From Streptomyces sp. NBC_01571 (GTDB lineage Bacteria; Actinomycetota; Actinomycetes; Streptomycetales; Streptomycetaceae): DNA of 64,000 bases. The notes under the pieces are model-generated. The model was given only the letters and a program-made list of their open reading frames with translations, was not told the origin of the DNA and made no database searches. Position numbers and translations under genes: made by a program. The stretch covers positions 1,984,001-2,048,000 of the forward strand of contig NZ_JAPEPZ010000001.1 of NCBI RefSeq assembly GCF_026339875.1. Direction: 5' to 3'. Position 1 is the stretch's first letter; every line of letters starts with the position of its first letter. Of the stretch, positions 5,041 to 49,364 are shown piece after piece.

Positions 5041-5064
5041 GCTCACAACCTTCTTGGCGTTTGG

Positions 5065-19661: not shown

Positions 19662-19993
19662 CGCGAAGCCTCTTTGTGATCGGACGCCACGCCCTCGGCA
19701 CAGAGCCTGACGAGGGCCATGAGCATGTCCATGCGGTGCCCGCCCCAGTGGACGGTCCGCTGACCCTCCAACTTGACGGTGATCACCGGGGTCTGCTGGC
19801 AGCCGAGCTTCTCAGTGACGTGGCGGTGGTTCTCGTCGCCCGGCTCAAGGTCGATCTTCGTGTAGGCGATGCCTTTGCGCTCGAAGAGCTGTATGGCCTT
19901 GTCGAAGTTTGGGCAGTCCCGCGGGCCGTAGATCGTGATCGTCGGCAGAACACGCGCCGTCTGCGGGAGGTCCATGCTGTTGACGGTGGGCAT
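19658..19993 (-). CDS. NrdH/glutaredoxin-like protein with single active-site Cys
   Basis: 111 residues from ATG 19993. TITIYGPRDCPNFDKAIQLF, the linker KGIAYTKIDLEPGDE, the cis-Pro motif QQTPVITVK and the Trp-Gly-Gly-H end follow the order of NrdH redoxins, which reduce ribonucleotide reductase. The usual C-x-x-C is C-P-N-F here (Cys27, Phe30), so only a monothiol mechanism is possible. Phage replicons often carry such redoxins. Confidence 0.7.
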   Translation of the reverse strand: MPTVNSMDLPQTARVLPTITIYGPRDCPNFDKAIQLFERKGIAYTKIDLEPGDENHRHVTEKLGCQQTPVITVKLEGQRTVHWGGHRMDMLMALVRLCAEGVASDHKEASR

Positions 19994-20051
19994 GCGGATG
20001 CCTTTCTGGCTCGTGGGAGGGACTGCGGCTGTGTGGAGGCACGGTGCGCAG

Positions 20052-20642
20052 CTAGGGCGCGACGACGGTGACGCCCTCGTCGAGCACAGCGCGGATCTCG
20101 TTGATGCGCTGCCGGTCGATCTCCGTCGTCGGCTCAGCGGGAGAATCGGCAGCATGCCGCTGCACATGAGTGCGCTGGGCGGAGGTTCCCCTCTTCTTCG
20201 GTGGCACGCCGGCGTCCATCGAGATGGTGACGGCGCGTGCAGTGCCGCCGCTGCCGTCGGCCATGTCAGGGACCAGCTCACAGAAGTAGTGGCCGGCTTC
20301 GATGTCGAGTGCTTCGTCGAACTTCCACCCGGTGATGTATGCGGTTCCGTTGGAGTTGAGCCCACGGACTTCGTAGACGTGCTCGCCGGTCTCGTCGTCG
20401 GCGCAACGCTGCAGCATGAGCTTGCGGGCATCCCGGTCCACAAGGACGATGAGCTTCATCTTTGGCATGTTGCCCGGCCAGCGAGCACCGGCGTCGCCGG
20501 GCGATGGACGGAGCCAGTCCCGCGTGCCCGCGGACAGGGTGATCTGCGAGCGTCCGTTCTCGCTGTGGAGCACGGTGAGCTTCGCTGGTCGCTGCTTGCG
20601 CCGCGACTGGCGCAGGTCAGGGCGATAGATCTCGAAGGGCAT
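20052..20642 (-). CDS. hypothetical protein
   Basis: 196 residues. A basic N-terminus (MPFEIYRPDLRQSRRKQRPA) precedes a beta-rich domain (KMKLIVLVDRDARKLMLQRC, VYEVRGLNSNGTAYITGWKF), and a charged C-terminal helix with a K-K-R patch follows. It may be nucleic-acid-binding; not recognised. Confidence 0.5.
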   Translation of the reverse strand: MPFEIYRPDLRQSRRKQRPAKLTVLHSENGRSQITLSAGTRDWLRPSPGDAGARWPGNMPKMKLIVLVDRDARKLMLQRCADDETGEHVYEVRGLNSNGTAYITGWKFDEALDIEAGHYFCELVPDMADGSGGTARAVTISMDAGVPPKKRGTSAQRTHVQRHAADSPAEPTTEIDRQRINEIRAVLDEGVTVVAP

Positions 20643-26759: not shown

Positions 26760-27595
26760 TCAGGCGGCGTTCTTCCAGTTCTTGGTGAACGTCTCGTCGA
26801 GCATTCGGGTGTAGATGCCGAGATCGAGCGCCCCGATGAGCTGCTCGACTCGGGCGGCCGGCAGCGCGCGGAGGTCGTCGTTGACGACGATCACCGACCA
26901 GTGCGGGTCGATGCCGTTGATCCGGCGGATCACGACGTCCTGGTTATCGGGCAGCAGCGTGAGGCCGTCGGAGATGCTGGCCTCGCTGCGGTTCTTCGCC
27001 CACCCGTGGTGGCGCAGGATCTCCAGCGCGATCGGGTCACGTCGCACCCCGGCGCTGCCGGACTCGCGGCGCTTGCCCTGGCTGGCCGGGTTCACCTTCC
27101 ATGCGCCGGCGTTGTGCAGGCTCACGGCACCATCAGTGCCGTCGTGGACGATGAAGACCCGGTTGACCATCTGCAGGGCCCGCGGGTTCACCAGCTGCGC
27201 ATCGGCGTCCTCGTTGTCGTCACGGTCGGGCGCGGCGCTGACCGGGTCGGCGGCGAACGGGTAGGTGATTGATCCGCGCGAGGCGGCGAGGACGTTCTGG
27301 AACAGCAGCAGCGTCCGCACGGGATCGGCCGGGTCGATCGCCTCCTCGATCATCTTCCGGCCCAGCACAGGATCGAACGGCTCGGCGAGAGCCTCCTCTC
27401 CCCTGCTGGCGACGGTCTGCAGGTAGCGGGCCAGGGCGAAGTCGATCACGGCCGGGTGGGCCAGCGACTTCGTCGGGGTAGGACCCGCGTGGCAGGCCAG
27501 CGTCCCGCCGGAGGCGGTGATGATCGGGCTGTCGGCGACGCTCCGGTCCTCACTGGGCGACTCCAGCTCGAGCCGGTTGTTCGAGTCCTTGCTAA
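26760..27595 (-). pseudogene. family-B DNA polymerase, C-terminal part severed by IS1380
   Basis: Past the IS the polymerase frame continues as KDSNNRLELESPSEDRSVAD, SPIITASGGTLACHAGPTPT and VIDFALARYLQTVASRGEEA to its TGA at 26760. This is the thumb/C-terminal region. Without the IS and one CTAA copy, this part and 29273-31614 make one frame of 1057 residues. On its own it lacks a ribosome site and catalytic motifs. Confidence 0.85.
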
Positions 27596-29272
27596 CCTCG
27601 CCGTTTCACTTGGGTACGGCTGGCTTTGGGGCGGAAATGCGAAAGTGCCTTCCTGACCTGGGACGATGAACCTTGCTGAGGAGTTCTGTCGGTCCAGGCG
27701 GAGGGCACTTTCTACGTGCAGGCTATCGGGTTGCGTCCCAAGATCCAGGTCAGTGCAGATGGTTCGGGGGTGGTCGGGCATGCCGGGGCACGGTTACTGG
27801 CCGATCTCGCTGATGCCACCGGGCTGACCGCCGCGTACTCCACCGCGCTCAGGCCACTTCGGCCGCGCGGGACCGGGCATGATCCGGGCCGGATCGCCAC
27901 CGACCTGGCGGTGGTGCTCGCCGACGGCGGTGAGGCCATCGCGGACCTGGCCGTACTGCGGGACCAGGCAGGGGTGTTCGGTTCGGTCGCCTCGGCACCG
28001 ACGGCCTGGCGACTGCTCGCCGACACCGACGAGAGGACACTGGCTTCTCTGCGCGCGGCGCGTGCCCAAGCTCGGGAAGTCGCCTGGATGCAGGCCGCCG
28101 AGCAAGGCGAGGGCATACCCGCAGTCCGGGCCGCGGGACGCATTCTGCCCGGGCTGGTCCTGGACCTCGACGCCACGCTGATCACCTGCCACTCCGAGAA
28201 GGAGCAGGCCGCACCCACCTATAAAGGCGGCTTCGGCTTCCACCCGCTGCTGTGCTTCCTGGCCAACACCGGCGAGGCACTGTCGGGCCGACTGCGTCCC
28301 GGAAACGCCGGTGCCAACACCGCGAGCGACCACATCACGGTGTTCGACCAGGCACTCGCGCAGATCCCCGACGCTCAACTTCACGGCACCGACATCCTCG
28401 TCCGCACCGACAGTGCCGGATCCGCGAAAGCATTCCTCGCCCACGTCCGCGACGTGCGGAAACGAGGAATCCGTACCTTCTTCTCGGTCGGATACGCCAT
28501 CACCGAGCCGGTCCGTCGCGCTGTCCGGGCCATGCCCGACCGCCTCTGGCATCCCGCCCTGGACCAGGACGGGACTCTGCGTGATGGCGCCGAGGTCGCC
28601 GAGCTGACCGGCATGGTCGATCTGGACGGCTACCCGGCCGGCACCCGCATCATCGTGCGCCGAGAGCGGCCGCACCCCGGAGCCCAGCTGTCCCTGTTCG
28701 ACCAGGACGAGGGCCTGCGGCATCAGGTGTTCCTCACCGACACCCCGTACTCCGGTGGCGGTTCCGCCCAGTTCCTGGAGGTCCGCCACCGCGGACATGC
28801 CACTGTCGAGGACCACATCCGGTGCGGCAAGACCACCGGCTTCGGCCGCTTCCCTCCCGCGACTTCGCCGTCAACGCCGTCTGGCTCGAACTCAGCCTCG
28901 CCGCGATCGACCTGCTCGCCTGGACCCGTGTCCTCCTCCTGGACGGGGAGCTGGCCACCGCCGAGCCGAAGAAACTCCGCTACCGGCTACTGCACGTCAC
29001 GGCCCGCCTCACCCGCGGCGGCCGACGCCTCCACCTGCGAATATCGGCGACCTGGCCCTGGAGACACGAACTGGCCACGGCCTTCCACCGCCTCGCCGCA
29101 CTGCCCCGACCCGCCAGCTGACCAGCAAACCCCCGTCCGCCCACGACCCGAAAGAACCCGGAGAACCCGACCACCGCGCCGGGACTCCGACCTGCCCAAG
29201 CACCGAAATCACATCGGCCACCCAACAGTTGGCGATCAGCGACGCCGCCTCAGCCCAACCGAAACGGCGAGG
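27596..29272 (+). mobile_element. IS1380-family insertion sequence, copy A, 1677 bp
   Basis: Ends CCTCGCCGTTTCACTTGGG (27596) and the inverted CCTCGCCGTTTCGGTTGGG (ending 29272), with 4-bp duplications CTAA at 27592-27595 and 29273-29276. Nearly identical to copy B at 58201-59878 but one base shorter. It splits the DNA polymerase gene. Confidence 0.92.
27716..29121 (+). pseudogene. IS1380-family transposase, frameshifted copy
   Basis: Starts MQAIGLRPKIQVSADGSGVV and carries LVLDLDATLITCHSEKEQAA and ILVRTDSAGSAKAFLAHV, the DDE part of IS1380 enzymes. At 28851-28855 it reads TTCCCTCCC where copy B has TTCCCCTCCC, so the last 90 or so codons are out of frame. Inactive as written, unless the missing C is a base-call error. 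Confidence 0.9.
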
Positions 29273-31614
29273 CTAATGAGGAACATCAGCTCCGGTTCGA
29301 TGTCGATGCCGATGGCGGCCTGCTGCTCGGCGAGCACCCGGTTGTTGGTGGTCTCATCGAAGCCGTTCTCGCCGCCGACGACGGAGTAGAGGCCGTCGGT
29401 GTTCGTCGAGATGATCCGCGCACCGGCCAGCGTCTGGGCCTGCCCGATCCGCCAGCTGAACAGCTGGCCGATGATCCGCATCGAGATGGTGCGGTTGTTC
29501 ATCCTGATCGGGGTCCGGTGCGCGGCGTCAGCAGCTCCAGAGGCCGAGTTGAGGATCAGCTTCGTGCCGTTGCGCAGGGTCGTGAGCCGGGCCTTCTCCT
29601 CGGAGGAGATACCCGGCTTCTTCATCTCGAAGCCCAGGCGCTCCTTCTCGAAGAAGATCGTCGTGTAGCGGTCCGCGCCCAGCTCGGGGTTGTAGAACGC
29701 CCTCATGTTGCGCAGCAGGTTCGGGTAGTAGCTCGTGAAGTCCTCATGGATGACGAGGCCTGCCGAGGTCCGTGCGAACTTCGGGTGCAGCTTGGTGGAT
29801 TTGTCGGCCTTCGCAGTGAACAGCGTGGGGGCCTTCTTCGCCGGCTCATCGCGATAGACGGCCTTGACCGCCGAGGTGACGGCCAAGACTATCTTGCCGT
29901 CGAGCACGGTCCCGTCGGCCAGGCGCACGTGCATCGCCTCGGTGTCCGGGCGCTGCGTATCCAGCAGCTGGGCCGGATCCGGCACTTGGGCCTGCGCACG
30001 CGCGAGCTGCTCGGCCTGGTCCTGGTCGCCCTTCTTCGACTTGCGGTACTTCACCTTTTTCGGGTCCGAGCCCAGCAGCACGAGCCGTTTGTCGACGGTC
30101 GTCCCGTCGGGCAGCGCGAGCAGGTTGTGCTGGCGCTTGGCCTCGGCGACGAAGTCCTTCGCGTCCGGGTAGAAGAGCTTGGCGAGGCCGATCATCGCTG
30201 CCTGTTCTCGGTGCTCGAAGGAGTCGGCGTCGAAGACTGTCATGTCTGCCTCGGCTCCGTGGATGCCGCCTGTGCTGAACGTGGCGAAGCACGATGACGG
30301 AGAGGCGTCACGGTGGAAGTAGGGCACGTTGTTCGGTGTCTTCGGCAGCTCGCGCAAGGACTTGGCCGGGAGGTCGAACAGGTCGCGGTACTCCTCGGAG
30401 TCGTTGAAGTTCTGTCCCTCGATCGAGCGGTAGTAGTTGACGACCTGCATGAACTGGCGGTGCGCCTGCGCCTGTGCCGGCGTCGCGGATGGGTCCTTGG
30501 CAGGGTCGGGGGCCACGTTGTCCTCGAAGAAGCGCACGCACTCGTCGAGCACGTTGACCTGGGAGATGCCCTGCTCCTCGGCCACCTCCTTGGCCGGATA
30601 GAGGAACGACACGGCCTCGATGTCGTTCAGCGAGGTGTACGGCGCGAGGATGCGGCCGACGAACTTCGCGGAGGACGAGTCGATGGTCAGGCGGTCCCGG
30701 CGCACCGAGCCGTTCTTGGCGTAGACGGTCTCGGAGTACTGCGCCAGCAGACCGGCCTTGAGGTCGAAGTTGCTGGCGTAGGCCGGGTGCTGGAAGAGCT
30801 GGGCCAGGCCCAGGCAGTCGGAGACGTTGTAGGCCAGCAGCTCGTAGAGATCCTCGATCGCGGCGATCGAGGTGTCGTGGCTGAGCTTGTCGGACTCCTT
30901 GATCTGGCGGCCGAGCATCCCGAGCAGGCGCTTGAGGCTCACCTTGGTCTGCAGCTCGTTGAGACGGGCGACGTCCAGGTGCCGGCCCGAGTGCATCATG
31001 GCGCGGCGGATCTTGGCGGCCGGGCCGTCCCAGCCGAGGTAGCCGGGCATGTACTCGATGTGCTCGTTGAACAGCTTGTCGTTGTGCTCGCGCATCTCGC
31101 GCGCGGTGGTCGGCTGGACAAGACGACCGGAGTGCGGAGCCGGGAAGGTCTCCATCAGGTACAGCGCGAGCATGGTCATGTCGTAGTTCAGCGAGTTGTA
31201 CCCGGCCAGGAACGGGTGCTTCAGCGGGTCGTACTCGGGATCCGTGTCGCAGACCGGGCGCAGGCTCGCCGGATAGGACGAGACCTCGCTGCGGTCGTTG
31301 ACCTGGTCGGCGTTCGAGAGGCCCATCAGCTCGGCGAGGCGGAGGTTGCCCCGCTCGCCGCGCAGGTTCCACAGCTGGACGCTCACCGCGGGCAGGCCCG
31401 GGTTGGAGCGCACCACGGCTTCATAGAGCGCCTGCGGGTCCACGGCGTCGGAGAGCTGCTGGTTGTCGGCAAGGAAGAAGATCTCCAGGTCGTCGACGGC
31501 TCTGCCCGGCCGCGGGGTGTAGGCGCACAGAGTGAAGACGTCCGACAACGACTCGATGTCGTAGAAGGTGAAGCGCGCCTTCGAGGCCGTGACGGGTGTT
31601 CGCTGTGTGGTCAT
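29273..31614 (-). pseudogene. family-B DNA polymerase, N-terminal and palm part, interrupted by IS1380
   Basis: Residues 1-780 of a phage-type family-B polymerase. The 3'-5' exonuclease motif I is FYDIES (17-22). Motif A is HEDFTSYYPNLLRN, motif B KLILNSASGA and motif C STNTDGLYS (a variant of D-T-D-S). It starts at ATG 31614 with AAAGGAG about 8 bases upstream. The IS inserted after MFLI and appends 11 IS-encoded residues. All three polymerase motifs lie before the break, but the thumb is lost. It would copy the replicon together with the primase-helicase encoded just upstream. Confidence 0.9.
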
Positions 31615-31920: not shown

Positions 31921-33762
31921 TCAGTCCTGCTCGTCAGTGGTGTCGTCGGTCGGGGCGGATGGGCCCGTCTGCCGGAGCAGGCCGCGGTAGTTGGCCTGCA
32001 GCATCGGCTGGGATTTCTTCTTCGGGTCGCTGCCGGTGTAGCTCGGGTGCATCCACTTCTTCAGCTCGTACTCGGCGATAAGCACCTCGGGGGTGTGCAT
32101 CATCTGGCCGGGCCGGATCTTGCGGTTCTTGTCCGGGCAGTGCCACAGGGCATCCGGCCGGACGATCGCCACGAGGTCAGTGATGAACTGCTTGTTGCTC
32201 ACCGGGGAGCCCGACGGCGAGACGTCGGCGAACCAGGCCTTGTACAGGTCATAGAGGAACGTGAACGGTGCCAGGTCCCAGGCCAGCCGTCCGCGGAACT
32301 CTTCCCAGAAGGCGCGCACGGGGTCGTTGACCTCCTTGTACTCGGCCAGGACTTCCTTGGTGGCCACCGGCTCTGAGAGCTGGTAGTAGTCACCCGGAGA
32401 TGACGCGCCGGCGCGGTTGACCGCGTACCAGAAGACGTACTCCAGGACCTCGCGGCGCTGGAGGTAGTCGTCCTTGATGTACTTCTTCTCGGCTCCGGTG
32501 AAGCTCTTGGTAAAGGGCACAAAGAGCTGCCGGCGGTAGAACGACTCGGACTTGTCCTTCACGCGCGGGAACTCGTTCAGGCACTGGACCATGAAGCCGA
32601 AGAACTGGTAGGCGATCGGCATCCGGTACTTGCGGTTGATCTGGATGACGTCATTGGTCACGATCGCCTTCAGATTGGCCGCCTTGTCGATGAAGGTGCC
32701 GACATCGTTCTCGTCGACGATGATCGCGTTGGCGCGCACCAGCGGTTCGAGCGCGAAGTCCTTGCCGAAGTCCGAGAGCGGAATCGAGGTGTGCGCGCCG
32801 CTGCCGACGAGGTTGCGCATGAGCGCGCAAAGCGTGCCCTTACCGTTGTTGCCCTGCTCGGAGTAGAACCAGGCGGTCTTACCCCAGCGCACGTGCGGCC
32901 GGATGATCGCGCCGATGATCTCCCAGATCAGGTCGGCAAGACCCTCGTCACCGGGCTGGTCGAAGAGCTCTTCGATCCAGGCGCCGACTTCCCAATCTCC
33001 GTCCTCAGGGTGCGTGATGACCTGCTGCGGGGCGTCGTCCACGTAGTCGACGTCGTTCTTGGTCAGCAGCACGATGGCGGGGTCGAAGGGGTGGACCTGC
33101 TTGGGCTCGAAGTGGAAGTCCTTGCCGAAGATCGTGAGGTCCAGCGGCTCGGTGCCGTAGAAGACGATGCCGTTGCGCGCGGCGATGAAGTCGCGGTTCG
33201 TGCTCTGGTGCCGACGCGGGCTGTCCTCGCGCAAAACGGCCAGGACCTCGGCGAACTCCTTGAGGGTCAGCTGGGTGTTGTACATGCGCGCCGTGGTGCG
33301 GATGTCGTCCTCGCTGGTGGTGTACGTCCCACGCGCGCGGCCCGCGGCCTGGTACATCGCCAGCAGGTCGTACTCACGGTCGGTGTCCTTGGCGTTGGGC
33401 GCGATCCGGATGACGTGGTGCAGACGCAGGAGGATCTGCGCGACCTGCCAGTACGTCAGATATCTCGGCAGGGGGTACTTCTCGGCGGCCGTGGCCGCCT
33501 TGAAATTCTCGGCCTTGATGACCCCGCCCACGATCGCCAGCAGCTCCTTCTCCAGCGCACGAGGCGTCGGAGGATCGGTCGGGTCGATCTGGTCGAGGTA
33601 GGCGGCGGTGACGTAGGTGACGATCTCGTTCTGCGGAGCCATGTCGTCGCGGCTCGAGAAGTACCCCATGACGCTGGCCAGGACGTCGGCGACGGGGTTG
33701 GTGCGCGGTCCGGCGTTGGAACCGGCGGCAGGTACGGACATGAGGGCATCAGGAGGCGTCAT
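31921..33762 (-). CDS. P4/D5-type primase-helicase (SF3 helicase domain)
   Basis: 613 residues. The C-terminal half is an SF3/D5-like ATPase: Walker A EQGNNGKGT (302-310), Walker B NAIIVDEND (345-353), then ATNDVIQINRKY-like VTNDVIQINRKYRMPI and QCLNEFPRVKD, as in phage P4 alpha and poxvirus D5 relatives. The N-terminal 250 residues would hold the primase or D5_N part, though no zinc motif is seen. It unwinds and probably primes the replicon, working with the family-B polymerase next door. First gene of the leftward replication operon. Confidence 0.85.
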   Translation of the reverse strand: MTPPDALMSVPAAGSNAGPRTNPVADVLASVMGYFSSRDDMAPQNEIVTYVTAAYLDQIDPTDPPTPRALEKELLAIVGGVIKAENFKAATAAEKYPLPRYLTYWQVAQILLRLHHVIRIAPNAKDTDREYDLLAMYQAAGRARGTYTTSEDDIRTTARMYNTQLTLKEFAEVLAVLREDSPRRHQSTNRDFIAARNGIVFYGTEPLDLTIFGKDFHFEPKQVHPFDPAIVLLTKNDVDYVDDAPQQVITHPEDGDWEVGAWIEELFDQPGDEGLADLIWEIIGAIIRPHVRWGKTAWFYSEQGNNGKGTLCALMRNLVGSGAHTSIPLSDFGKDFALEPLVRANAIIVDENDVGTFIDKAANLKAIVTNDVIQINRKYRMPIAYQFFGFMVQCLNEFPRVKDKSESFYRRQLFVPFTKSFTGAEKKYIKDDYLQRREVLEYVFWYAVNRAGASSPGDYYQLSEPVATKEVLAEYKEVNDPVRAFWEEFRGRLAWDLAPFTFLYDLYKAWFADVSPSGSPVSNKQFITDLVAIVRPDALWHCPDKNRKIRPGQMMHTPEVLIAEYELKKWMHPSYTGSDPKKKSQPMLQANYRGLLRQTGPSAPTDDTTDEQD

Positions 33763-34096: not shown

Positions 34097-34106
34097 CAGG
34101 GCTTGA

Positions 34107-35384
34107 TCAAGTTCCGTAGGTGTCTGGTTCGGTTGTGATGCCCAGGATGTGGAGTGCTCGTTCGGGTTCGTTTCGAATCGCTCGGGTGGTTTTGGCGATG
34201 TTGTCGGATCCGAGGGTCTTCAGGACGCCGATGGCGAGGTTGCGGAGGGTTGCCATGGCGCGGGGTGCTGTGCCGGTGTGGACGGTGGAGGCGTCTTCGG
34301 CGAAGGTGACGTCCCTGATGTGGTGTGAGGAGTTCTCGATCCCCCAGTGCCCGCGGATCGCGGTGGCAAGGCCGGCGGGGCCGGTCTGGTGGGCGTCGAG
34401 GCTGGTGACGGCGTAGAGGCTCTCCCGGGTCTCGCGCTGGCCGGTTTGCTTGCGGCGGCGGTGGACACGGATGGCCAGGCGGCCGTGGGGGAAGGAGATC
34501 CCGCCGAGTTCGTCCGGGACGGCGCAGGTCTTGATCGAGCGGGACTCGCGCCTGCCGTGCCCGGTGGTGGAGGCGGTGTGCTGGACGGGAATATCGCGCC
34601 ACGGCAGGTCCGCGAGCTGGCTGTGGGCGGTCGGCTGGTTGGTCTTGGTCACGGCGATGTAGTGGGCCTTCTTCGTCTCGACCAGCCAGGAGACGTTCGC
34701 CTTGACCGAGTGCAGCGCGTCGAAGGTGACGACGGTGCCGGCCAGGTCCAGCGGTGCCAGGAGCGGTTGGAAATGTGTGGTTTCGTTCGTCTTCGCGCCC
34801 ACTTCCACCTGCGCGAGGGTGACGACCGGGGCGTGGGTGACCGCGGAGAGCAGATGCCGGCGCTTCGCGGTCAGACGGGCTGATCCCTTGAGTGTCTTGC
34901 CGTCGACAGCGATCACACACGGCCGCCCGGACGCCGAGGGCGATGGCCTGTGGGCCGGCTCGGTGGCGACGCGGTGCCGGTCGGCGAGGTAGGCGCCCAC
35001 CGCCCGGTCCAGGGCGTCACCGTCAACGGTCCCCAGCACCCGGCCGATCGTGGCCGGTGACGGAGTGCGTCGCCAGCCGAGCAGGTGACGCCGGATCCCG
35101 ATCACTACCAGGAGTGCGTTCGAGGCGCGCTGGCCCCACTCGGCGAGTTCCTCGATGCTCCTCGCTCCCGACACGGCCGCACAGGCGCACACCAGCAAGA
35201 TCGCGGTCAGTGAGTACCAACGGCCCCGCCGCGAGCGCGGATCGGGCACCGCATCGAGGTAGGAACGCAGATCGGCGACCTGACCGGCGTCCAGCGGACC
35301 CAGCCTCATCAGCACGGCAGGGACCGGAGAAGATATTGCAGCAGGCACGGGCCACCTCGTGATCATCGGGCGTAGGAACCACAA
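34107..35384 (-). CDS. ISAs1-family transposase (divergent copy)
   Basis: 425 residues: [60 protein letters not shown] (first Asp) and [20 protein letters not shown] (Glu) are hallmarks of ISAs1/H-repeat DDE transposases. About four fifths identical by eye to the other two copies, so a separate lineage of the same family. Frame intact. Confidence 0.9.
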   Translation of the reverse strand: MWFLRPMITRWPVPAAISSPVPAVLMRLGPLDAGQVADLRSYLDAVPDPRSRRGRWYSLTAILLVCACAAVSGARSIEELAEWGQRASNALLVVIGIRRHLLGWRRTPSPATIGRVLGTVDGDALDRAVGAYLADRHRVATEPAHRPSPSASGRPCVIAVDGKTLKGSARLTAKRRHLLSAVTHAPVVTLAQVEVGAKTNETTHFQPLLAPLDLAGTVVTFDALHSVKANVSWLVETKKAHYIAVTKTNQPTAHSQLADLPWRDIPVQHTASTTGHGRRESRSIKTCAVPDELGGISFPHGRLAIRVHRRRKQTGQRETRESLYAVTSLDAHQTGPAGLATAIRGHWGIENSSHHIRDVTFAEDASTVHTGTAPRAMATLRNLAIGVLKTLGSDNIAKTTRAIRNEPERALHILGITTEPDTYGT

Positions 35385-35534
35385 TGATCACGAAACCCGT
35401 GCCTGCCCTGCTATCCACCCCAACCGACGACAGCCCGGCCAACCCTCACCACCCCGGAACTTGCAGCCGCCCTGTGGTTGGGGCGGACAGCAGAGCAGGC
35501 ACGGACTGAGTGATCATTTGGGTGTCTAAGCCTG

Positions 35535-36782
35535 ATGATCACGAGGTTGCCCGTGCCTGCCGCTGTATCTTCTCCCATCCCCGCCGTGCTGGCGAAGTTG
35601 GGTCTCCTTGACGCTGACCAGGTCGCTGACCTGCGACCCTTCCTCGAGTCGGTGCCCGATCCGCGCTCAAGGCGGGGCCGCTGGTACTCGCTGACGGCGA
35701 TCCTGCTGGTGTGTGCATGCGCGGCGGTCTCCGGGGCGAGGAGCATCGACGAACTCGCCGAGTGGGGTGAGCGCGCCCCGAACTCACTGCTGGTGGTCAT
35801 CGGCATCCGCCGTCATCCGCTCGGCTGGCGGCGCACACCGTCACGGACCACGATCGGCCGGGTGCTGGAGGCCGTCGACGGGGATGCCCTGGACCAAGCG
35901 GTGGGCGCCTACCTCGCCGACCGGCACCACACAGCCACCAGGCCGCCCGGCCCGCCCGGTCCCGGGCAGCGGCGCGTGATCGCCGTCGACGGCAAGGCGC
36001 TCAAGGGCTCGGCCCGCCTCGCCGCTAGGCGCAGACACCTGCTCTCCGCGGTCACCCACCACCGAGCCGTGACCCTCGCTCAGGCCGAGGTCGGCGCGAA
36101 GACGAACGAGACCACCCACTTCCGGCCCCTGCTCGAGCCCCTCGACCTGACCGGCACCCTCGTCACCTTCGACGCTTTGCACTCGGTCCAGGCGAACGTC
36201 GCCTGGCTGGTCGAGATCAAGAAGGCCCACTACCTGGCAGTGATCAAGACCAATCAGCCGACCGCCCACCGCCAACTCGCCGCACTGCCCTGGCAGGACA
36301 TCGCCGTCCAGCACACCGCCACCACGAAGGGACACGGCCGCCGTGAATCCCGCTCGATCAAGACCTGCGGCATCGCGGACGAACTCGGCGGCATCGCCTT
36401 CCCCCACGCCCGACTGGCCATCCGCGTTCACCGCCGTCGCACACAGACCGGCCACCGGCAGACACGGGAGACGGTCTACGCCGTCACCAGCCTCGACGCC
36501 CATCAGACAGCCCCGGCCGAACTGGCCGGCGCAGTCCGAGGCCACTGGTCCGTGGAGGCCCTGCACCATGTCAGAGACGTCACCTTCGCCGAGGACGCCT
36601 CCACCGTCCACACGGGAACCGCACCCCGCGCCATGGCGACCTTCCGCAACCTCGCCATCGGCCTGCTGAAAACCCTCGGTGCCGGCAACATCGCCAAGAC
36701 CACACGGGCGATCCGCGACCAACCAGAGCGAGCACTCCCACTCCTGGGCATCACCAACAACCCGGAACCCCAGGGAACTTGA
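35535..36782 (+). CDS. ISAs1-family transposase
   Basis: 415 residues, intact. [40 protein letters not shown] and [20 protein letters not shown] carry the ISAs1 DDE signatures. It differs from the copy at 38405 by one residue seen here (RRRH versus RRRN in the stretch after ARLAA) and a silent base near 35707. Its IS lacks the left 31 bases. Confidence 0.92.
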
Positions 36783-36801
36783 TCAAGCCCTGCCCGCGGG
36801 C

Positions 36802-37690
36802 GGCGTGAGCCGCCCGGCCCGCGGTCGAGGTTCGGAGGAGTTCTTCTGACCGGTCGAGCCAGCTGCCACCAGAGCATCGACCGGACGCTCTCCAGGAGGA
36901 TCCCGAGCGCCGCACGCCCGCATACCCTCTAGGGGTAAACGAGCGTGTACCACTTGACGTGGTACACCTGTTCCCCCAGGTCAGAGCGAGAATTCCGGGA
37001 GTTCAAGAGCAAGGTGTACCACGTGGCACTTTCTACGTGGTACAGGTGTTTGCCCAGGTCAGGCGGTGTTTATATACCCCCCGTACCACTTGTACCAGGA
37101 AATAGAGACTAGATACACGCGCAGGGGGGATAAGAGAGCAGACTGGCGAGCTGGGGCTGGAGCCGCCTGGACCGCTCCCGAACGCGTCCCCTATGTAAAC
37201 GGTCAAAAAAGCGTGGTACTCGTGGTACATCGACGGGAAATGCTGGGCGACCAGGTAAAACGTCGTACCACGTCGGCGCTCCTATGTGGTACACCCAATG
37301 CGGGAAAGAGCCTTACGGTCCAGGTGTTTTCCCAGGTCAGACGCTGCTTTCGGGTGTGTACCACGTCTCGTGGTACAGCTGGCAGCTCGATGCGCCCAGC
37401 CCCCTGGCGACCAAGTCGAGGCGGACTTCCACGCCGAGCCGCCGTGCGGCTCCCAGGCGGCGCGGCCGAGCCTCAGCGGGACTGGACATCCTCGGCGTCC
37501 TGAGGCTCGCAGAAGGCTCCTTACGCGTCCTCCGAGCGCGAGTCAGAACTCTGTCCGAGCCGTTCATCCATGAGACCCCACTGGAAGCGAGGGAGCATTT
37601 GACTGGCATTCGCTGCTCATTGCGAGTGATACACGACAGCTGCTATCGTTGACGCCAGGTGATCAATGTTGCACTGGAACGTGGAAACAG
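36802..37690. other. non-coding region with an iteron-like array (possible origin)
   Basis: About 890 bases with no supportable ORF, lower GC than the rest. It contains the GTGGTAC array (36945-37377), three copies of an AGGTGTTT-N-CCCAGGTCAG-like motif (near 36968, 37045 and 37322), a T/A-rich patch TGTTTATATACCCC (37067-37080) and a near-palindrome TACCCTCTAGGGGTA (36923-36937). These are features of a plasmid replication origin or a complex operator. Confidence 0.5.
36945..37377. repeat. twelve GTGGTAC half-sites, several as perfect dyads
   Basis: Dyads: GTGTACCAC-N5-GTGGTACAC (36945-36967), TGTACCACGT-N10-ACGTGGTACA (37015-37044), GTACCAC-N14-GTGGTAC (37265-37292) and TGTACCAC-N5-GTGGTACA (37357-37377). 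Single or tandem half-sites lie at 37083, 37092 (GTACCAG), 37213 and 37222. Arms are exact while spacers differ, as expected of a protein-binding array rather than RNA hairpins. Confidence 0.85.
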
Positions 37691-37735
37691 AGAGGCCGGA
37701 GAGCATCCCCGTGGGAAGGGAGCTCTCCGGCCTCT
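37691..37735. terminator. 14-bp perfect hairpin terminator
   Basis: AGAGGCCGGAGAGC (37691-37704) pairs with GCTCTCCGGCCTCT (37722-37735) and is followed on the + strand by TTTGCA. It lies 60 bases beyond the stop of the leftward gene at 37796 and can serve either strand. Confidence 0.75.
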
Positions 37736-37795
37736 TTGCATGTGCTGATGAGTGCGAGGCGTGGATGGCGCGAATCTCCCAGGGGTGACCAGCCT

Positions 37796-38188
37796 TCAGC
37801 CTCGCTGGTATCCCGCATTGGAGGACTCGGGACCGCGGCTACGGGATCGCTCGTCTGCTTCGACGACGTAGAGGATCTCGTAGGAAATCGTGGTGTTGAG
37901 GTTGAGCCGGTTCTTGCTCTGGCTCTTCTCCATCGTGATCTTGCGGAAGCCGCGAACGGCCTCAGCGCGATCGAAGAACCGGCGCAGCCTCAAGTTCACG
38001 CGCTCACGGGCCTGTTCGGCCGTGACGCCCATGTCGGAGACGACGAAGACATGTGTGTGACCATGCTCGAAGGTGGGCTTCTCACCAGTGTCGAGGTCCA
38101 GACGGATCTTCGCACGGCTGATGTCGAGCGCGTCGGGACGGACGAGCTTTCCTCGTGAGTCGTACGTACAGGTGCTGACGATAGCCAT
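37796..38188 (-). CDS. hypothetical protein
   Basis: 130 residues from ATG 38188 (MAIVSTCTYDSRGKLVRPDA), with AGGAGAGGATC upstream. Beta-rich: HVFVVSDMGVTAEQARERVN, then NLNTTISYEILYVVEADERS. The nearest complete gene to the GTGGTAC array, with its own terminator. No family recognised. Confidence 0.55.
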   Translation of the reverse strand: MAIVSTCTYDSRGKLVRPDALDISRAKIRLDLDTGEKPTFEHGHTHVFVVSDMGVTAEQARERVNLRLRRFFDRAEAVRGFRKITMEKSQSKNRLNLNTTISYEILYVVEADERSRSRGPESSNAGYQRG

Positions 38189-38312: not shown

Positions 38313-39662
38313 CAGGGCTCGTGCAAGTTCCCTGGTTGTGCGGGTGGTTGGGGCGGACAGCAGAGCAGGCACGGACTGAGTGATCATTTGGGTGTCTAAG
38401 CCTGATGATCACGAGGTTGCCCGTGCCTGCCGCTGTATCTTCTCCCATCCCCGCCGTGCTGGCGAAGTTGGGTCTCCTTGACGCTGACCAGGTCGCTGAC
38501 CTGCGACCCTTCCTCGAGTCGGTGCCCGATCCGCGCTCAAGGCGGGGCCGCTGGTACTCGCTGACGGCGATCCTGCTGGTGTGTGCCTGCGCGGCGGTCT
38601 CCGGGGCGAGGAGCATCGACGAACTCGCCGAGTGGGGTGAGCGCGCCCCGAACTCACTGCTGGTGGTCATCGGCATCCGCCGTCATCCGCTCGGCTGGCG
38701 GCGCACACCGTCACGGACCACGATCGGCCGGGTGCTGGAGGCCGTCGACGGGGATGCCCTGGACCAAGCGGTGGGCGCCTACCTCGCCGACCGGCACCAC
38801 ACAGCCACCAGGCCGCCCGGCCCGCCCGGTCCCGGGCAGCGGCGCGTGATCGCCGTCGACGGCAAGGCGCTCAAGGGCTCGGCCCGCCTCGCCGCTAGGC
38901 GCAGAAACCTGCTCTCCGCGGTCACCCACCACCGAGCCGTGACCCTCGCTCAGGCCGAGGTCGGCGCGAAGACGAACGAGACCACCCACTTCCGGCCCCT
39001 GCTCGAGCCCCTCGACCTGACCGGCACCCTCGTCACCTTCGACGCTTTGCACTCGGTCCAGGCGAACGTCGCCTGGCTGGTCGAGATCAAGAAGGCCCAC
39101 TACCTGGCAGTGATCAAGACCAATCAGCCGACCGCCCACCGCCAACTCGCCGCACTGCCCTGGCAGGACATCGCCGTCCAGCACACCGCCACCACGAAGG
39201 GACACGGCCGCCGTGAATCCCGCTCGATCAAGACCTGCGGCATCGCGGACGAACTCGGCGGCATCGCCTTCCCCCACGCCCGACTGGCCATCCGCGTTCA
39301 CCGCCGTCGCACACAGACCGGCCACCGGCAGACACGGGAGACGGTCTACGCCGTCACCAGCCTCGACGCCCATCAGACAGCCCCGGCCGAACTGGCCGGC
39401 GCAGTCCGAGGCCACTGGTCCGTGGAGGCCCTGCACCATGTCAGAGACGTCACCTTCGCCGAGGACGCCTCCACCGTCCACACGGGAACCGCACCCCGCG
39501 CCATGGCGACCTTCCGCAACCTCGCCATCGGCCTGCTGAAAACCCTCGGTGCCGGCAACATCGCCAAGACCACACGGGCGATCCGCGACCAACCAGAGCG
39601 AGCACTCCCACTCCTGGGCATCACCAACAACCCGGAACCCCAGGGAACTTGATCAAGCCCTG
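38313..39662 (+). mobile_element. complete ISAs1-family insertion sequence, 1350 bp
   Basis: Left end CAGGGCTCGTGCAAGTTCCC (38313) and right end the inverse of CAGGGCTTGATCAAGTTCCC (39662) match at 16-18 of 20 positions. A 9-bp duplication CTGAAAGGC lies at 38304-38312 and 39663-39671. Almost identical to the right-hand copy of the 34097-36792 unit. Confidence 0.93.
38405..39652 (+). CDS. ISAs1-family transposase
   Basis: 415 residues, intact; same sequence as the copy at 35535 apart from single changes. Carries [40 protein letters not shown] and [10 protein letters not shown]. Because its element has both ends and a clean duplication, this is the copy most likely to be active. Confidence 0.93.
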
Positions 39663-40551: not shown

Positions 40552-42405
40552 TCAAGCAGCCGTGGTGATCTGTTCGTTGATGACGGCCTGCACGCGGGTG
40601 TCGCCGCGGAAGGTGTTCAGCTGCAGCGTCGCCGTGAAGCGCAGCGTCCCGAGCTCGGTGCGGCTGGCGCGCTGCACGAAGCCCCGGAGCACGTCGAACT
40701 TCTCCTCGGCGACGTTCCACCACAGGCAGGACAGGCCGGACCGGGTGACCAGCCGCAGGTGCTGCGATTCGGATCCGATCCGGTCCACGCGCAGCCCCAG
40801 GGGCTCGATCGCGATCTCGACGACAGGAGCGGTGAAGCCGTGCCCGAAGGGCTTGAGCCCCTCGGTCCGGCGCACCAGCTCGAACAGCGGCTGCAGATCC
40901 TCGAGGCTGGCGTCGCAGTCGGCGTCCGGGCCGAGTACCAGATCACCGCTCGGTCCGTCGGTGCTGACGGCGAGCAGGGCGACCTGGGTGGCCTCCTGCA
41001 GCACGGCGACGAGGTCACCGAGCTTCTCGGCCTTCGCGATGCGGACGCCGCAGGCCTGCTGGTGCCCGATGGCGCTGAGACCGTCGTGCGGCTCCAGGCT
41101 GGTGATGATGTCGAACCACCCCGGCGCGCGACCGGAGCCGCTGACGAAATCGTCGGGGCCGGCGGGCCGGTTGACGACGACGACCGGGTGGCCGTTGAGC
41201 TCCATCATCCGGTTGGCCAGCAGCCCGTACATGCCCGGGTAGGCGTCCGAGAAGTACACCCACGGGGCCAACGGCTGGTCCCCGGTGGTGAGTTCTTCCA
41301 TGTGCCCGATGACCAGCTGCTTGCGCAGATCGTTGCTCTCGATCACCTGGTGGGCGACCTTGAGCTTGACGTCAGCACCGGCGGCCGTGAACACCGCGAA
41401 GCACGGCTCAAGCGAGGCCCCCGTGCGGCGCGGGCTGTTCATCGCCGGGGCGAGGTAGAAGCCGAAGAAGCCCTCGTCGAGGTCGTCGACGTCTCGGATC
41501 TTGCCGATCTGCGCGAAGGCCTTGAGCACGATCGCGAAGCCCTCGAAGGCCCGGAGGAAGACCGGATGATGTGGCTCGGTGCGCAGCAGCTGCATCAGGA
41601 TCGACTGCTCGACGTCGATGGCATCCGGGTCAGCGTCGAACCCACCCCAGGGATTGGGGATCGTCTTCGGCGCGACGACGCGCAGCAGACGGGCGATCGA
41701 GATCGCATCACGCACCAGCTGACGGTTCTCGTACAGCACGGGCATGACGTCGGAGACGGTGCCCAGGCCGGCGAACAGGCGCAGCAGGTGGATCTCCCAG
41801 AGCTTCTCGGGCCGGTGCACGCGGGTGTAGGCCTCGATCACCTGGTAGAGCACGTGGGCACCGCAGATCCCGGTGTGGGCGTAGGTCTCGTCGATCCGGC
41901 ACGGGTCGACGGTGATGTCCGCGGTCGAGCCCGGCGCGAGCTCCTCGTGGTGATCGGTCACCAGCGTCGTCCAGCCCAGGGCACGCGCGGCGGCGATACC
42001 GCGGTGGGAGTTCACTCCCCCGTCGCAGGTGAGCAGGACCCGGGTGTCGGGCCACTTCGCGTGGATCTCGGCGATGTCCTCGGGCGCGAGCTCGTGACCG
42101 CGGCGGTAGTCGGGCAGGTGCAGCTCGACGTCGAAGCCGAGCTCGGACAGGCCGGCGTAGCCGAGGACGCCGGAGGAGATGCCGTCCATGTCGAAGTCGG
42201 GGGCGATGGTGATCTTCTTACCCGTGGTCCGGGCGTCATGAAGGGCCTCGACCATCTCGGCCAGGCCCAGGAGCTCGTCGTGCTCGGTGGACTCGATCTC
42301 CTTCAGGTACTGATCCGACCACCCCCTGCGCTGGCACAGCAGCTCGAAGAGGTCGGTGTCCTCGTCGGTGAGCGCATGGTCGTCGACCGTATGGAGCGTG
42401 GACAT
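40552..42405 (-). CDS. RecJ-like DHH-family single-strand exonuclease
   Basis: 617 residues from ATG 42405, with GAGAGGTC 6-9 bases upstream. IAPDFDMDGISSGVLGYAGL carries the first DHH motif (D-x-D), LLTCDGGVNS the second, and VTDHHEELAPG the DHH motif; a DHHA1-like glycine-rich region (CGVRIAKAE) follows. RecJ removes 5' single-strand ends in recombination and repair. Here it is a replicon-borne version of about usual length. Divergent from lsr2 across 206 bases that must hold both promoters. Confidence 0.85.
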   Translation of the reverse strand: MSTLHTVDDHALTDEDTDLFELLCQRRGWSDQYLKEIESTEHDELLGLAEMVEALHDARTTGKKITIAPDFDMDGISSGVLGYAGLSELGFDVELHLPDYRRGHELAPEDIAEIHAKWPDTRVLLTCDGGVNSHRGIAAARALGWTTLVTDHHEELAPGSTADITVDPCRIDETYAHTGICGAHVLYQVIEAYTRVHRPEKLWEIHLLRLFAGLGTVSDVMPVLYENRQLVRDAISIARLLRVVAPKTIPNPWGGFDADPDAIDVEQSILMQLLRTEPHHPVFLRAFEGFAIVLKAFAQIGKIRDVDDLDEGFFGFYLAPAMNSPRRTGASLEPCFAVFTAAGADVKLKVAHQVIESNDLRKQLVIGHMEELTTGDQPLAPWVYFSDAYPGMYGLLANRMMELNGHPVVVVNRPAGPDDFVSGSGRAPGWFDIITSLEPHDGLSAIGHQQACGVRIAKAEKLGDLVAVLQEATQVALLAVSTDGPSGDLVLGPDADCDASLEDLQPLFELVRRTEGLKPFGHGFTAPVVEIAIEPLGLRVDRIGSESQHLRLVTRSGLSCLWWNVAEEKFDVLRGFVQRASRTELGTLRFTATLQLNTFRGDTRVQAVINEQITTAA

Positions 42406-42611
42406 GGTGGGACCTCTCATCAAGGTTGTTGGTCGGTGGAGAACGGGGTACGTGACACCCTTCGCATTGCTGTGATTTTAGCAGCTGCATTCACCTTTTC
42501 TGCCAATTCAGCAGTGCCTTCGAGTCCCATTTGGGCTCCGAATGACACTCTTATCTCGAATGGCTGCGACAGACTTTCCAAGGTCCTTGCGCATCAGCTA
42601 CTCTCGCCGGT

Positions 42612-44163: not shown

Positions 44164-45463
44164 TGCTGCACCCTTTGCTGCTGTCCACATCTGTGGACAA
44201 CTGCAGCGGGGCAGCGGTGGGGCTTCCTCTCTCAAGCTCAGCGCTGGGCATAGCCGGAGGGAGCGCCAGCGACCGACGGACCGGCGAGCGAAGCGAGCGG
44301 TGGAACCCGTCGGCTATGCCGACTAACACGTCCTCGGAGCGCAGCGGAGAGGCCGAGCGGAGCGAGGGTCCGCAGGACACGTGTTATCAGGTTCCCTTAT
44401 GCCCTTTGCCTTCTTGCCGTCGTCCTCGCTGTTCCACGGCTGGAGCGTTAGCGGAAGCCTGGAACATCAGGGGAAACGGTCCGTACCCTCTTGACCCGTA
44501 CCCCTCCCCCTTTTCCGCGTAGCGGGGGTACGGGTCTGGCTGTTTCGCCTGGTCATTGCACCTTCTGGCTGTACTGCTGTTTTGCCGTCCGTGATACGGC
44601 CGTACCCCCATGCTGATCCGTCCTCGTGAGGCACGAGCGAGGCGGGGGTACGGGTCTGCTCCTGACGGGGCGCAGCCCCGGTTCATCGTCCTGCTGCCGT
44701 CGGCGGCACAGCCTTCGCCGCGCAGCGGATCCGTCCTCTCGCGACACCGTCGCTCCGGCTGTGGATAACGCTCTGCTCCACCGCTCGCTGCGGCGGCGCA
44801 GCCGGCCTCGCCCCGTCGCGTTGTGCTGGCTACACCGACGTGGATTCACCTCGCTCCGGTCGTTGCTCCGGTGCTGCCGCGGCAGCGCGCCAGCACTTCA
44901 TGCACCGCGTCCGAGGCGGGCGTTCTGCACTGTGTCGACGACGCCCGTTCCGGCCCCGGGCTGTGCTCCGTCTCGCGCTTGCGCGGCGAGCCCGGGGTGG
45001 TTCTTCGTGGACGCATCAGAAGAAGAGAGGCCCGGCTGCTGCGACCAGCTGCTCATCGGGCACAGCGAGCCGCTCCAGCGTCATCGGGCCGTTGTCGTCG
45101 TCCTCCAGGGGCTGCTTCCGCAGCAAAGGCCTCTGCTCTTCCCCTATCCACGGGCCTTCGCTGCGGAAGCAAGTCCTTCCTCGCACGTTCGCTGCGTGCG
45201 GGGGTCTTCTACTCCGCCTTCGCTCCTTCTCCCTCTGCTCTCCTCTGCGCGACCATGACGGCCCGATGACACCCCTGTACCGACCGTCGCAGCGGCGCTG
45301 TGCCAACACTGTGTTGACGGCTCGCCGACGGCTGTGCTGGCTCGCTCCGCCGGCCTTCCGTGGCTGCGCTGCCGCGCCTGCCGACGGGCTTCGGCGAGGG
45401 GCACAGACAGGCTTTTCGGCCCCATGAAACAGCGTCTCTCGCGCGTCTCCGAGGTGACTCATC
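44164..45463. other. 1.3-kb non-coding stretch with DnaA-box-like sites
   Basis: No ORF here has family likeness; the open frames are low-complexity. It holds inverted DnaA-box-like sites at 44181-44200, another at 44760-44768, a GTCGGC-TAT-GCCGAC palindrome near 44311, and two copies of GCGGGGGTACGGGTCTG (about 44522 and 44644). Together with the repeats to the right this looks like replicon control DNA. Confidence 0.45.
44181..44200. promoter_or_regulatory. inverted pair of DnaA-box-like sites
   Basis: CTGTCCACA (44181-44189) faces TGTGGACAA (44192-44200, complement TTGTCCACA, the preferred Streptomyces DnaA box). A third site TGTGGATAA (complement TTATCCACA) lies at 44760-44768. Confidence 0.5.
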
Positions 45464-45909: not shown

Positions 45910-46053
45910 TCAATAGGGGTACTAGAGTGAGCCCGCGTTGATTCGCATTCGAGAGGAAACGCGAAGGGCGGTGAGTCCATATGGCAGAGCGAGAGGCATC
46001 CGGCGAACGACCGGATGAAGCGCAGGTGCGAGTGGCGGGGCGAGGTGAGTGCA

Positions 46054-46527
46054 ATGGCGAATCAGCCGGGTGAACCTCGCAAGGTCCGCTGGACCGTGCC
46101 CGCTGCCGACACCTCGGTGATCGAGTGGCTCGATCAGCAGGAGAACATCTCGCAGTCGCTGCGACTGCTCATTCGGGAGTCCATTCAGCGCGACGGATAC
46201 ATCGATGTCTTCTACAAGCCCGTCGATCAGCTGCCGCGTCGCGGACGGCCGCCGCTGGAGAGCACCGAGCAGCACGAGGACGACGAGGCCACAACCGATC
46301 GCCGTCCGGCCGCCAGGCCGGTTCAGCCGCAGCCCGTGGTCACCGACCAGGCCGACGCCGTCGTCGAGAAGACAGCACCAGCGCCGGTAGCCCAGCCCGA
46401 GCCGATTCCCGCACCGGTTGAGACGGCCGAGGAGCCCGCGGCAAACGCCCCCAGCGCACCGCCGGAACCGCCGAAGCAGGCATCCATCGACGAAATCAGG
46501 GTCTTCGAAGTTAGGCGGGGTGGGTGA
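46054..46527 (+). pseudogene. parR: ParR-like centromere-binding adaptor, last codons replaced by ISL3
   Basis: From ATG 46054 (GAGGTG upstream): MANQPGEPRKVRWTVPAADT then ENISQSLRLLIRESIQRDGY, a ribbon-helix-helix-like N-terminus as in ParR/StbB, followed by a long acidic, Pro/Ala-rich tail. Without the ISL3 element the gene ends SIDEIMASTRR at TGA 48005-48007 (154 residues); with it the tail is IRVFEVRRGG. ParR-family C-termini contact ParM, so this small change could matter. It precedes parM directly in the native order. Confidence 0.7.
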
Positions 46528-48065: not shown

Positions 48066-49364
48066 ATGAGCGCCAACAGCAACGACACCATCACTCTTAC
48101 CGGCGGCATCGACGTCGGCAACGGCTACGTCAAGGGCGTCATCCAGAACACGAAGCAGGGGACTTTCGACGAGATCGATCTGCCCAGCGCGGTCGTCTCG
48201 ACTTCCCGCACCTCGCCGAAGGTGCCGCTCCCCGACGCGGATGCGGCCTCCGTGCTGGCCGGCGACTTCTACAATCAGATCGACTGCTCGCTCGCCACTC
48301 CCCTGGTGGCGGCGTCGGACCGCCGGATCTTCGGCCGCGCAGCGCTGTCTGTGCGTGGCTCGAAGTTCACCGAGTTCGAGGTGCTGGGCAAGCACTCCAA
48401 GGCCGATCAGGAGCTGAGCAAGGTTCTGGTCCTGGGTGTCTTCGCCGCGAAGGCCCTGCGCGACTACGTCCGCGAGAACGGCGCGCTGCCCGATCACGAG
48501 CTGCGCGTGCAGGTGCGCGCCGGCCTGGCGTTGCCGATCTCCGAGTTTGTCGCGCGCCGCCACGCCTACGCCGCCGAGTTCATCGGTCTGCTGGGCAGCG
48601 CGGATTCGACGGTGCACCTGGTGACGATCAAGAACTTCAGCACTCCCGTCTCGGTGCGTCTGCAGTTCGTCGACGTCCAGGTGATGGCCGAGGGTGCCTC
48701 CGCGCAGTTCGCCATCACCGACAAGGGCGAGCCCCTCGCGCAGGCCCTGCTCGATGATCTGCGCGCCCGTGACGCGTCCATCGTGGAAGGTGTCTCTGCC
48801 TCCGATCTGGTGGCGGTGCAGAACACCATCGGCGTCGACGTCGGCGAGGGCACCGTGAACTTCCCGGTCTTCACCGACGGCCGGTTCAACCCCGAGGCGG
48901 CCGACACCCTCGACGAGGGCTACGGCACCGCGCTGATGAACGCCATGGAGCGCATGAGCGAGTCGGACGCCACGCTGCAGTTCTCCTCGCGCAAGCAGCT
49001 GGCCGACTTCCTCCACGCGGAGCCGTCGGTGCTGGTGAAGAACCGTCACCAGCGCGCCGCCGGCTTCGTCGAGGACGAGGCGAGCTACCTGGTCGATGAG
49101 ATCGTCTCCTCCTTCGGCGACGTCCTCTCCCAGGCCGGTGCGACGACCGAGGTCGTCTACGTCTACGGCGGCGGCTCGGGCCCGATCAAGCATCTGCTGC
49201 ACCCGGCGCTGCTGAAGGCCGCGGGCGATGTGCCCGTGCTCTACCTCGACTCGAGCTACTCGCGGCACCTGAACCGCGAGGGCCTGTACATCGCGGCGCG
49301 CCACGTCGAGCAGCAGGCCCTCGCCGCGAAGTCCGCGGGCAAGCGCAGTAAGGAGGTGGCCTGA
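48066..49364 (+). CDS. parM: ParM-type actin-like plasmid segregation ATPase
   Basis: 432 residues from ATG 48066, with GAGGGG 8-9 bases upstream. Actin-fold signatures: phosphate-1 GGIDVGNGYVKG, phosphate-2 NTIGVDVGEGTVNFPVF and adenosine VYVYGGGSGPIKHL. ParM polymerises with ATP and pushes plasmid copies apart when capped by ParR bound to parC. The three parts lie in order parC-parR-parM. Downstream genes are coupled (TGATG at its stop). Confidence 0.85.
   Translation: MSANSNDTITLTGGIDVGNGYVKGVIQNTKQGTFDEIDLPSAVVSTSRTSPKVPLPDADAASVLAGDFYNQIDCSLATPLVAASDRRIFGRAALSVRGSKFTEFEVLGKHSKADQELSKVLVLGVFAAKALRDYVRENGALPDHELRVQVRAGLALPISEFVARRHAYAAEFIGLLGSADSTVHLVTIKNFSTPVSVRLQFVDVQVMAEGASAQFAITDKGEPLAQALLDDLRARDASIVEGVSASDLVAVQNTIGVDVGEGTVNFPVFTDGRFNPEAADTLDEGYGTALMNAMERMSESDATLQFSSRKQLADFLHAEPSVLVKNRHQRAAGFVEDEASYLVDEIVSSFGDVLSQAGATTEVVYVYGGGSGPIKHLLHPALLKAAGDVPVLYLDSSYSRHLNREGLYIAARHVEQQALAAKSAGKRSKEVA

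Follow-up and report, generated by a model that had tools for sequence, protein, structure and literature searches.

Phage P4 replicates with a P4-family primase/helicase, the alpha protein, and needs two separate cis regions, ori1 and crr. In one report, SaPI Rep and SCCmec Cch2 are self-loading helicases whose C-terminal domain binds repeats beside their own genes, and they are proposed to act as two hexamers (PMC7581432). The origins described there consist of short noncoding repeats next to a helicase gene whose product has a primase_Cterm-type domain; they lie downstream of that gene, and Cch2 uses three 5-nt iterons (PMC7581432). Repeat-type origins of P4/D5-helicase replicons are already known. 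We present here a noncoding array that shares the short repeats and the adjacent helicase gene but, relative to the SaPI/SCCmec origins as that report gives them, stands upstream of the gene, spans ~500 bp, has twelve half-sites in a mirrored dyad/tandem layout, and is conserved across bacterial orders. The layout, the cross-order conservation, and the presence on an otherwise different plasmid appear to be new. Full-text searches of open-licence PMC articles with the half-site and longer pieces returned nothing on the array; papers on Streptomyces ICEs or actinobacterial prophages could mention the elements. Judged from sequence comparison, the array is probably (roughly 0.66) where a family of large mobile elements of actinobacteria starts replication, with helicase loading at two half-arrays.

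The window analyzed is a 64,000-nucleotide stretch from Streptomyces sp. NBC_01571. The word GTGGTAC occurs exactly 13 times in these 64 kb (100 shuffles: mean, 3.72; largest, 9), and 11 of the occurrences lie at 36947-37376. For a 516-bp region, 5,000 dinucleotide shuffles run with our own script gave a mean of 0.20 and a maximum of 4, versus the 11 observed. The half-site cluster at 36947-37376 is real and far beyond chance. An initial annotation of the window had counted twelve half-sites and at least four perfect inverted pairs with 5-, 10-, or 14-base spacers. Eleven half-sites are exact, and the twelfth, GTACCAG at 37092-37098, carries one mismatch; four exact pairs were found, with N5 spacers at 36947-36965 and 37358-37376 and N14 spacers at 37016-37043 and 37265-37292, and no exact pair has a 10-base spacer. 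The three other direct repeats that it listed are copies of CCCAGGTCAG, and its AT-rich patch corresponds to low-GC stretches (50% GC) at 37060-37134 and 37185-37234. When the 11.5-Mb genome was scanned for exact half-sites with spacers of 3 to 16 allowed, five inverted pairs were found, four of them in the array. The features of the array are as follows.

36921..37415, conserved noncoding unit of ~500 bp, the origin-like array (21-copy alignment; similarity stops near these ends in the captured plasmid copy)
36922..36937, left-end inverted repeat ATACCC-TCTA-GGGGTA (by eye; similar in Arthrobacter)
36947..36965, dyad 1, GTACCAC-N5-GTGGTAC (exact in 21/21 aligned arrays)
36975..36984, plus strand, direct repeat CCCAGGTCAG, copy 1
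37016..37043, dyad 2, GTACCAC-N14-GTGGTAC (half-sites exact in 21/21)
37053..37062, plus strand, direct repeat CCCAGGTCAG, copy 2
37083..37098, left tandem pair GTACCAC-TT-GTACCAG (second half-site with one mismatch)
37099..37212, central spacer, candidate unwinding region, in which CTAGATACA and TATGTAAACG are conserved
37213..37228, right tandem pair GTGGTAC-TC-GTGGTAC
37265..37292, dyad 3, GTACCAC-N14-GTGGTAC (exact in 20/21)
37331..37340, plus strand, direct repeat CCCAGGTCAG, copy 3
37358..37376, dyad 4, GTACCAC-N5-GTGGTAC (exact in 21/21)

The order is N5 dyad, N14 dyad, left-facing tandem pair, 114-bp center, right-facing tandem pair, N14 dyad, and N5 dyad, and reverse complementation leaves the order and orientation of the twelve half-sites as they are. 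Start-to-start offsets inside the pairs are 12, 21, and 9, then 9, 21, and 12, in the 21-array alignment; where both half-sites are exact, the deviations are one base in one pair each, in the NBC_01304 plasmid (20) and in locus L053 (22). The N5 dyads could form hairpins, as in a structured noncoding RNA rather than a protein-binding DNA array. We regard an RNA as most improbable: the half-sites hardly vary, compensating changes were not seen by eye, the tandem pairs are unable to pair locally, and no Rfam family matched the window at its gathering threshold (a permissive search gave two far-below-gathering hits beside the array).

The unit is present in Streptomyces, one other Streptomycetaceae genus, Arthrobacter/Pseudarthrobacter, and Kocuria. 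blastn matched 13 of 392 Streptomyces genomes; three with matches of 36 to 43 nt only were dropped, and 11 copies in 10 genomes were kept, including the window's own and one fragment. A 394-genome Streptomycetaceae sample gave four matches at an E value of 1e-8, one in the other genus and three already seen, and a pattern scan of a species-level genome collection returned 20 stretches, 13 of which are arrays. Among these 13 are the Arthrobacter/Pseudarthrobacter and Kocuria arrays, which show 72 to 79% identity per aligned piece. The initial annotation had suggested a search for the dyad in other plasmids; 2 of 72,556 plasmid records matched, and no array was found in the phage and E. coli collections searched. 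The carriers are mobile elements, located either on contigs of chromosome size or on a 639-kb plasmid, and they encode their own DNA polymerase and RecJ-like, SNF2-type, and ParM-like proteins.

The alignment comprised 21 full arrays, several of them near-identical; it omits G931, the fragment in G321, and three loci that are duplicates of G131, G187, and G257. The layout is alike in Streptomyces and Micrococcales. Half-sites are exact in 231/252 cells and, for the eight dyad half-sites, in 167/168. The inexact cells fall at site 6 in every one of the 15 Streptomyces rows, at site 7 in three rows, at site 8 in two, and at site 9 in one; the twelfth half-site is exact in 6/6 Micrococcales copies and 0/15 Streptomyces copies. 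After removal of 34 gappy columns, conservation per column averages 0.99 at half-sites (75/83 invariant) versus 0.81 elsewhere (62/345), and 14 less redundant rows gave 0.99 (75/83) versus 0.81 (64/345). Conservation alone would also fit a centromere or an operator.

The genes and sites around the array are as follows.

26760..27596, minus strand, remaining part of the DNA polymerase, residues 780-1057, past an insertion
29272..31614, minus strand, phage-type DNA polymerase, first part of the split gene (residues 1-781 of 1057)
31921..33762, minus strand, P4-family primase/helicase of 613 aa, candidate initiator (TIGR01613, DUF5906, Pox_D5, PDB 7ola)
34097..36792, IS block separating primase gene and array; relative G131 lacks it
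36798..36815, left flanking hairpin GGGCGGC-GTGA-GCCGCCC (in the window, reached in 5/40 shuffles, not beyond chance)
37688..37738, right flanking hairpin, putative terminator of the 130-aa gene (reached in 0/40 flank shuffles)
37796..38188, minus strand, conserved 130-aa protein (40-sequence alignment, no recognized family)
38314..39661, second IS copy, to the right of the gene for the 130-aa protein; likewise missing from G131
40552..42423, minus strand, RecJ-like DHH exonuclease (NCBIfam recJ below its cut-off)
44280..44700, second conserved noncoding block (block 2), GTACCCC repeats
46015..46527, plus strand, adaptor-like protein, RHH/ParR-like by eye and position, without family match (92.7% to the G131 protein)
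48066..49364, plus strand, ParM-like actin-family partition protein (PHROG 691 partition protein, E value of 1e-16; Pfam MreB-like_C below its cut-off)

The initial annotation saw no initiator gene of known type beside the array. This does not hold: the P4-family primase/helicase gene at 31921-33762 is its constant neighbor, and the array stands upstream, 393 to 448 bp from the primase start, in 20/20 relatives holding both (with ends extrapolated from BLAST). Only in the window is the distance larger, 3,148 bp, because IS DNA stands between the primase gene and the array. Two further arrays, on the NBC_01304 plasmid and in the G321 fragment, have no primase. The protein scores 150.9 bits against TIGR01613 (cut-off, 108.7) and matches DUF5906 and Pox_D5 in Pfam, where a separate primase domain was not found. 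Residues 211-516, the helicase part, match PDB 7ola (E value of 1.3e-38), a DNA primase entry that we take to be the SaPI5 protein. Its AlphaFold model was too poor for use (mean pLDDT, 44.7). Two features of P4/D5-type helicase origins are found here, a P4-family primase_Cterm helicase gene next to the array and repeated words, the putative binding sites, in a noncoding stretch.

The upstream position in 20/20 relatives would also be expected if an element-encoded repressor acted on the half-sites and controlled the primase operon, and some operator arrays are dense. Such an operator array is improbable, given six half-site pairs spread mirror-symmetrically over 430 bp. On the NBC_01304 plasmid, moreover, neither neighbor of the unit is an element gene and the unit is otherwise oriented to its neighbors, and a non-systematic look identified no conserved repressor gene.

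Across the relatives compared, of which the shorter loci show part only, the module runs from an SNF2-type helicase, a VRR-NUC protein, the 1,057-aa phage-type DNA polymerase, and the primase/helicase through the array to the 130-aa protein. It continues with a membrane protein of ~275 aa (a CAAX endopeptidase by its NBC_01454 annotation), the RecJ-like DHH protein, Lsr2, a SLOG protein, block 2, the adaptor-like protein, and the ParM-like protein. In the window, the two parts of the polymerase gene lie 1.7 kb apart, and an ISL3-type transposase gene (46654-47967) stands between the adaptor and ParM genes; for these reasons the window copy of the element is probably not functional. The transposase gene of the second IS copy equals that at 35535-36782 in 1,246/1,248 bases. 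A tyrosine-integrase gene at 8159-9298 and a topoisomerase gene ~23 to 26 kb outside the window would fit an integrated mobile element. The window also holds an AvrD-family gene (4021-5046; Pfam E value of 1.4e-73) near an MFS transporter gene and an FAD/NAD-type oxidoreductase gene.

The Gordonia plasmid pGKT2 resembles the module in its DHH phosphoesterase, P4-family primase (48% identical), adjacent large hypothetical protein, DEAD/DEAH-annotated helicase, and Lsr2. It differs in that the complete plasmid contains not one GTACCAC-N3-16-GTGGTAC dyad, and upstream of its primase gene no repeat array was obvious. Judged from this plasmid, the array is no fixed part of this helicase family. Primase residues 451-600 are 66 to 96% identical per 50-residue block among array-sharing elements and 34 to 50% identical to array-free pGKT2 and L126; other parts of the primase diverge as much. 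Since the module genes are linked, their conservation would not single out the primase as the half-site binder. L126, an IMG/VR contig with a 49% identical primase, has its own upstream repeats at 7492-7700, up to 48 nt long with inverted arms, which by eye stand before a small MerR-like open reading frame.

The 130-residue protein, proposed initially as the nearest candidate, is a frequent neighbor of the array. It belongs to no recognized family, however, is 50 to 54% identical between Streptomyces and Micrococcales while the half-sites hardly change over that range, and was not found on the NBC_01304 plasmid that carries the array. The stretches compared of L048 and NBC_01454, two of the 20 relatives with array and primase, are without its gene, a transposon following the array there; in NBC_01454, a 130-codon gene lies past the transposon. 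That transposon is Tn7-like (TnsA, Mu-C-type TnsB, and ATPase; L007 12630-18049) and begins, in NBC_01454, ~10 bases right of the array's conserved CCAAG end; a related one (L048 3968-8000; TnsB/TnsC 92 to 95% identical) begins only 3 bases away from that end. The NBC_01454 plasmid has another Tn7-like set (NZ_CP109461.1 623019-630515), which includes TniQ and is ~450 bp distant from block 2.

The region at 37655-37745 has a very stable predicted RNA fold (z score, -6.8), and strong hairpins occur at a similar distance in most relatives. This hairpin is probably the terminator of the 130-aa gene. Flank hairpins exceeded chance on the right in 7/7 copies tested and on the left in only 4/7, the left one being stronger in Micrococcales copies. 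That the flanking hairpins insulate the array transcriptionally is a guess.

Block 2 invites comparison with phage P4: the primase/helicase is of the P4 family, and ori1 and crr are comparable to the array and block 2. The repeat sequences are others, the word being GTACCCC in block 2 and GTACCAC in the array. Decayed relics G250, G269, and G321 retain block 2 with the adaptor and ParM genes (one stop codon in the G250 ParM gene), and no array match was found in G250 and G269. Block 2 also stands without the array on two related MobF-type plasmid contigs, G046 (95%) and G150 (a 168-bp piece, 94%); neither genome had a ParM match or appears among those matched by the primase. This suggests that block 2 is of some use even where the element is absent, and that dependence on ParM probably does not explain its role in full. 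It also makes it less likely that both blocks work as a single replicon in every case.

Centromeres, too, can contain dense repeat arrays. Were the array a centromere-like partition site, its half-sites would bind an adaptor, e.g., the RHH-like protein at 46015, and couple the element to the ParM-like filament. The adaptor-like gene upstream of a ParM-like gene recalls the alpAC of CGP3 and pGKT2, and CGP3 likewise has an actin-like gene, an upstream adaptor gene, and repeats near (PMC4446434). In that account, however, the alpS consensus TTAAnnG lies in the alpAC promoter (PMC4446434). The array stands elsewhere and has another word. TTAAnnG (alpS of CGP3/pGKT2) is absent from 19/21 array copies and occurs once in 2/21. 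ParM-type centromeres (parC) have their repeats directly at the par operon; in the window, ~8.6 kb that include other genes separate the array from the adaptor gene, and block 2 is nearer the par genes. The relics G250 and G269, moreover, keep block 2, adaptor, and ParM without an array match. We consider a centromere unlikely. The G131 copy of the adaptor-like protein had no NCBIfam match.

The array is also found on NZ_CP109058.1, a circular MobF plasmid of 45,582 bp from Streptomyces sp. NBC_01304, at reverse-strand coordinates 19280-19749. There it is joined directly to block 2 (19745-20114); in the element, block 2 is 6 to 7 kb from the array and in the opposite relative orientation. The chromosome of the same strain (G284:C1; G284 taken as this strain) holds the element's module. 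The plasmid's block 2 is 93% identical to that of the host element and 78 to 85% to others. Its array is 84.4% identical to the host copy and 86.3% to G090, so the host copy is not the closest, and the two blocks may accordingly differ in history, block 2 being closest to the host element and the array closer to G090. When 44 of the 52 plasmid proteins were compared with the element stretches by tblastn, only a DUF6884 gene matched (G023, 37.8%; G128, a fragment). Extending the comparison to 184 kb at the window and to the complete 639-kb plasmid of NBC_01454 added three genes, with matches on the NBC_01454 plasmid only; they are 30 to 55% identical, and none is near the array. Window proteins gave no match to the 45.6-kb plasmid at an E value of 1e-8. 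Pfam searches of 48 of the 52 genes (38 also with NCBIfam) found partition, coupling-protein, toxin, and recombinase families and no recognized replication initiator; an unrecognized initiator is possible. Tentatively, this plasmid could be a replication satellite that has both cis blocks and is copied, and perhaps segregated, by proteins of the chromosomal element, although we hold this to be less than an even chance.

The joint presence of both blocks on a MobF plasmid, and of block 2 alone on two related MobF-type contigs, might instead point to a transfer or recombination site (oriT, clt-like, or res-like). By eye, block 2 lies just downstream of a serine-recombinase-like reading frame on one of those contigs and 1.4 kb from a tyrosine-recombinase-like open reading frame on the other. 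Such a function is very unlikely for the array, which was not found on the two contigs (G046 and G150), has no relaxase or recombinase as a constant neighbor in the 40-kb contexts compared, and lies ~18 kb from the relaxase gene on the NBC_01304 plasmid.

A replication origin is supported by the primase adjacency in 20/20 relatives, the near-invariant half-sites, the TIGR01613 and 7ola matches, the plasmid copy, and the SaPI/SCCmec precedent. Counting against it are the array-free pGKT2 primase and the 639-kb NBC_01454 plasmid, possibly mosaic, whose cumulative GC skew, after detrending, has its turning points at ~194 and ~537 kb and not at the array (5.4-6.0 kb). The initial annotation had called the array origin-like or operator-like and looked to plasmids; its conservation and its capture by another plasmid favor a replicon, and the window itself is on a 9.66-Mb contig, not a plasmid. 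The mirror-symmetric sites around a spacer would suit two opposed helicases. As an origin, the array would have its half-sites bound by the C-terminal region of the helicase, with two oppositely facing oligomers, one per half-array. The central spacer would be opened between them, and replication would begin with the element's own polymerase set; block 2 (44280-44700) could serve as a partition or accessory replication site.

For these large actinobacterial elements, the comparisons point to a likely origin, to its likely initiator, and to a possible satellite relation. If the satellite relation is true, the plasmid parasitizes the replisome of an integrated element, and the origin is a mirror-symmetric loader that serves two opposed helicases and can be carried from replicon to replicon. 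With its symmetry and near-invariant half-sites, such an origin would be a good model for self-loading by P4/D5-type helicases and could yield new replicons for Streptomyces genetics.
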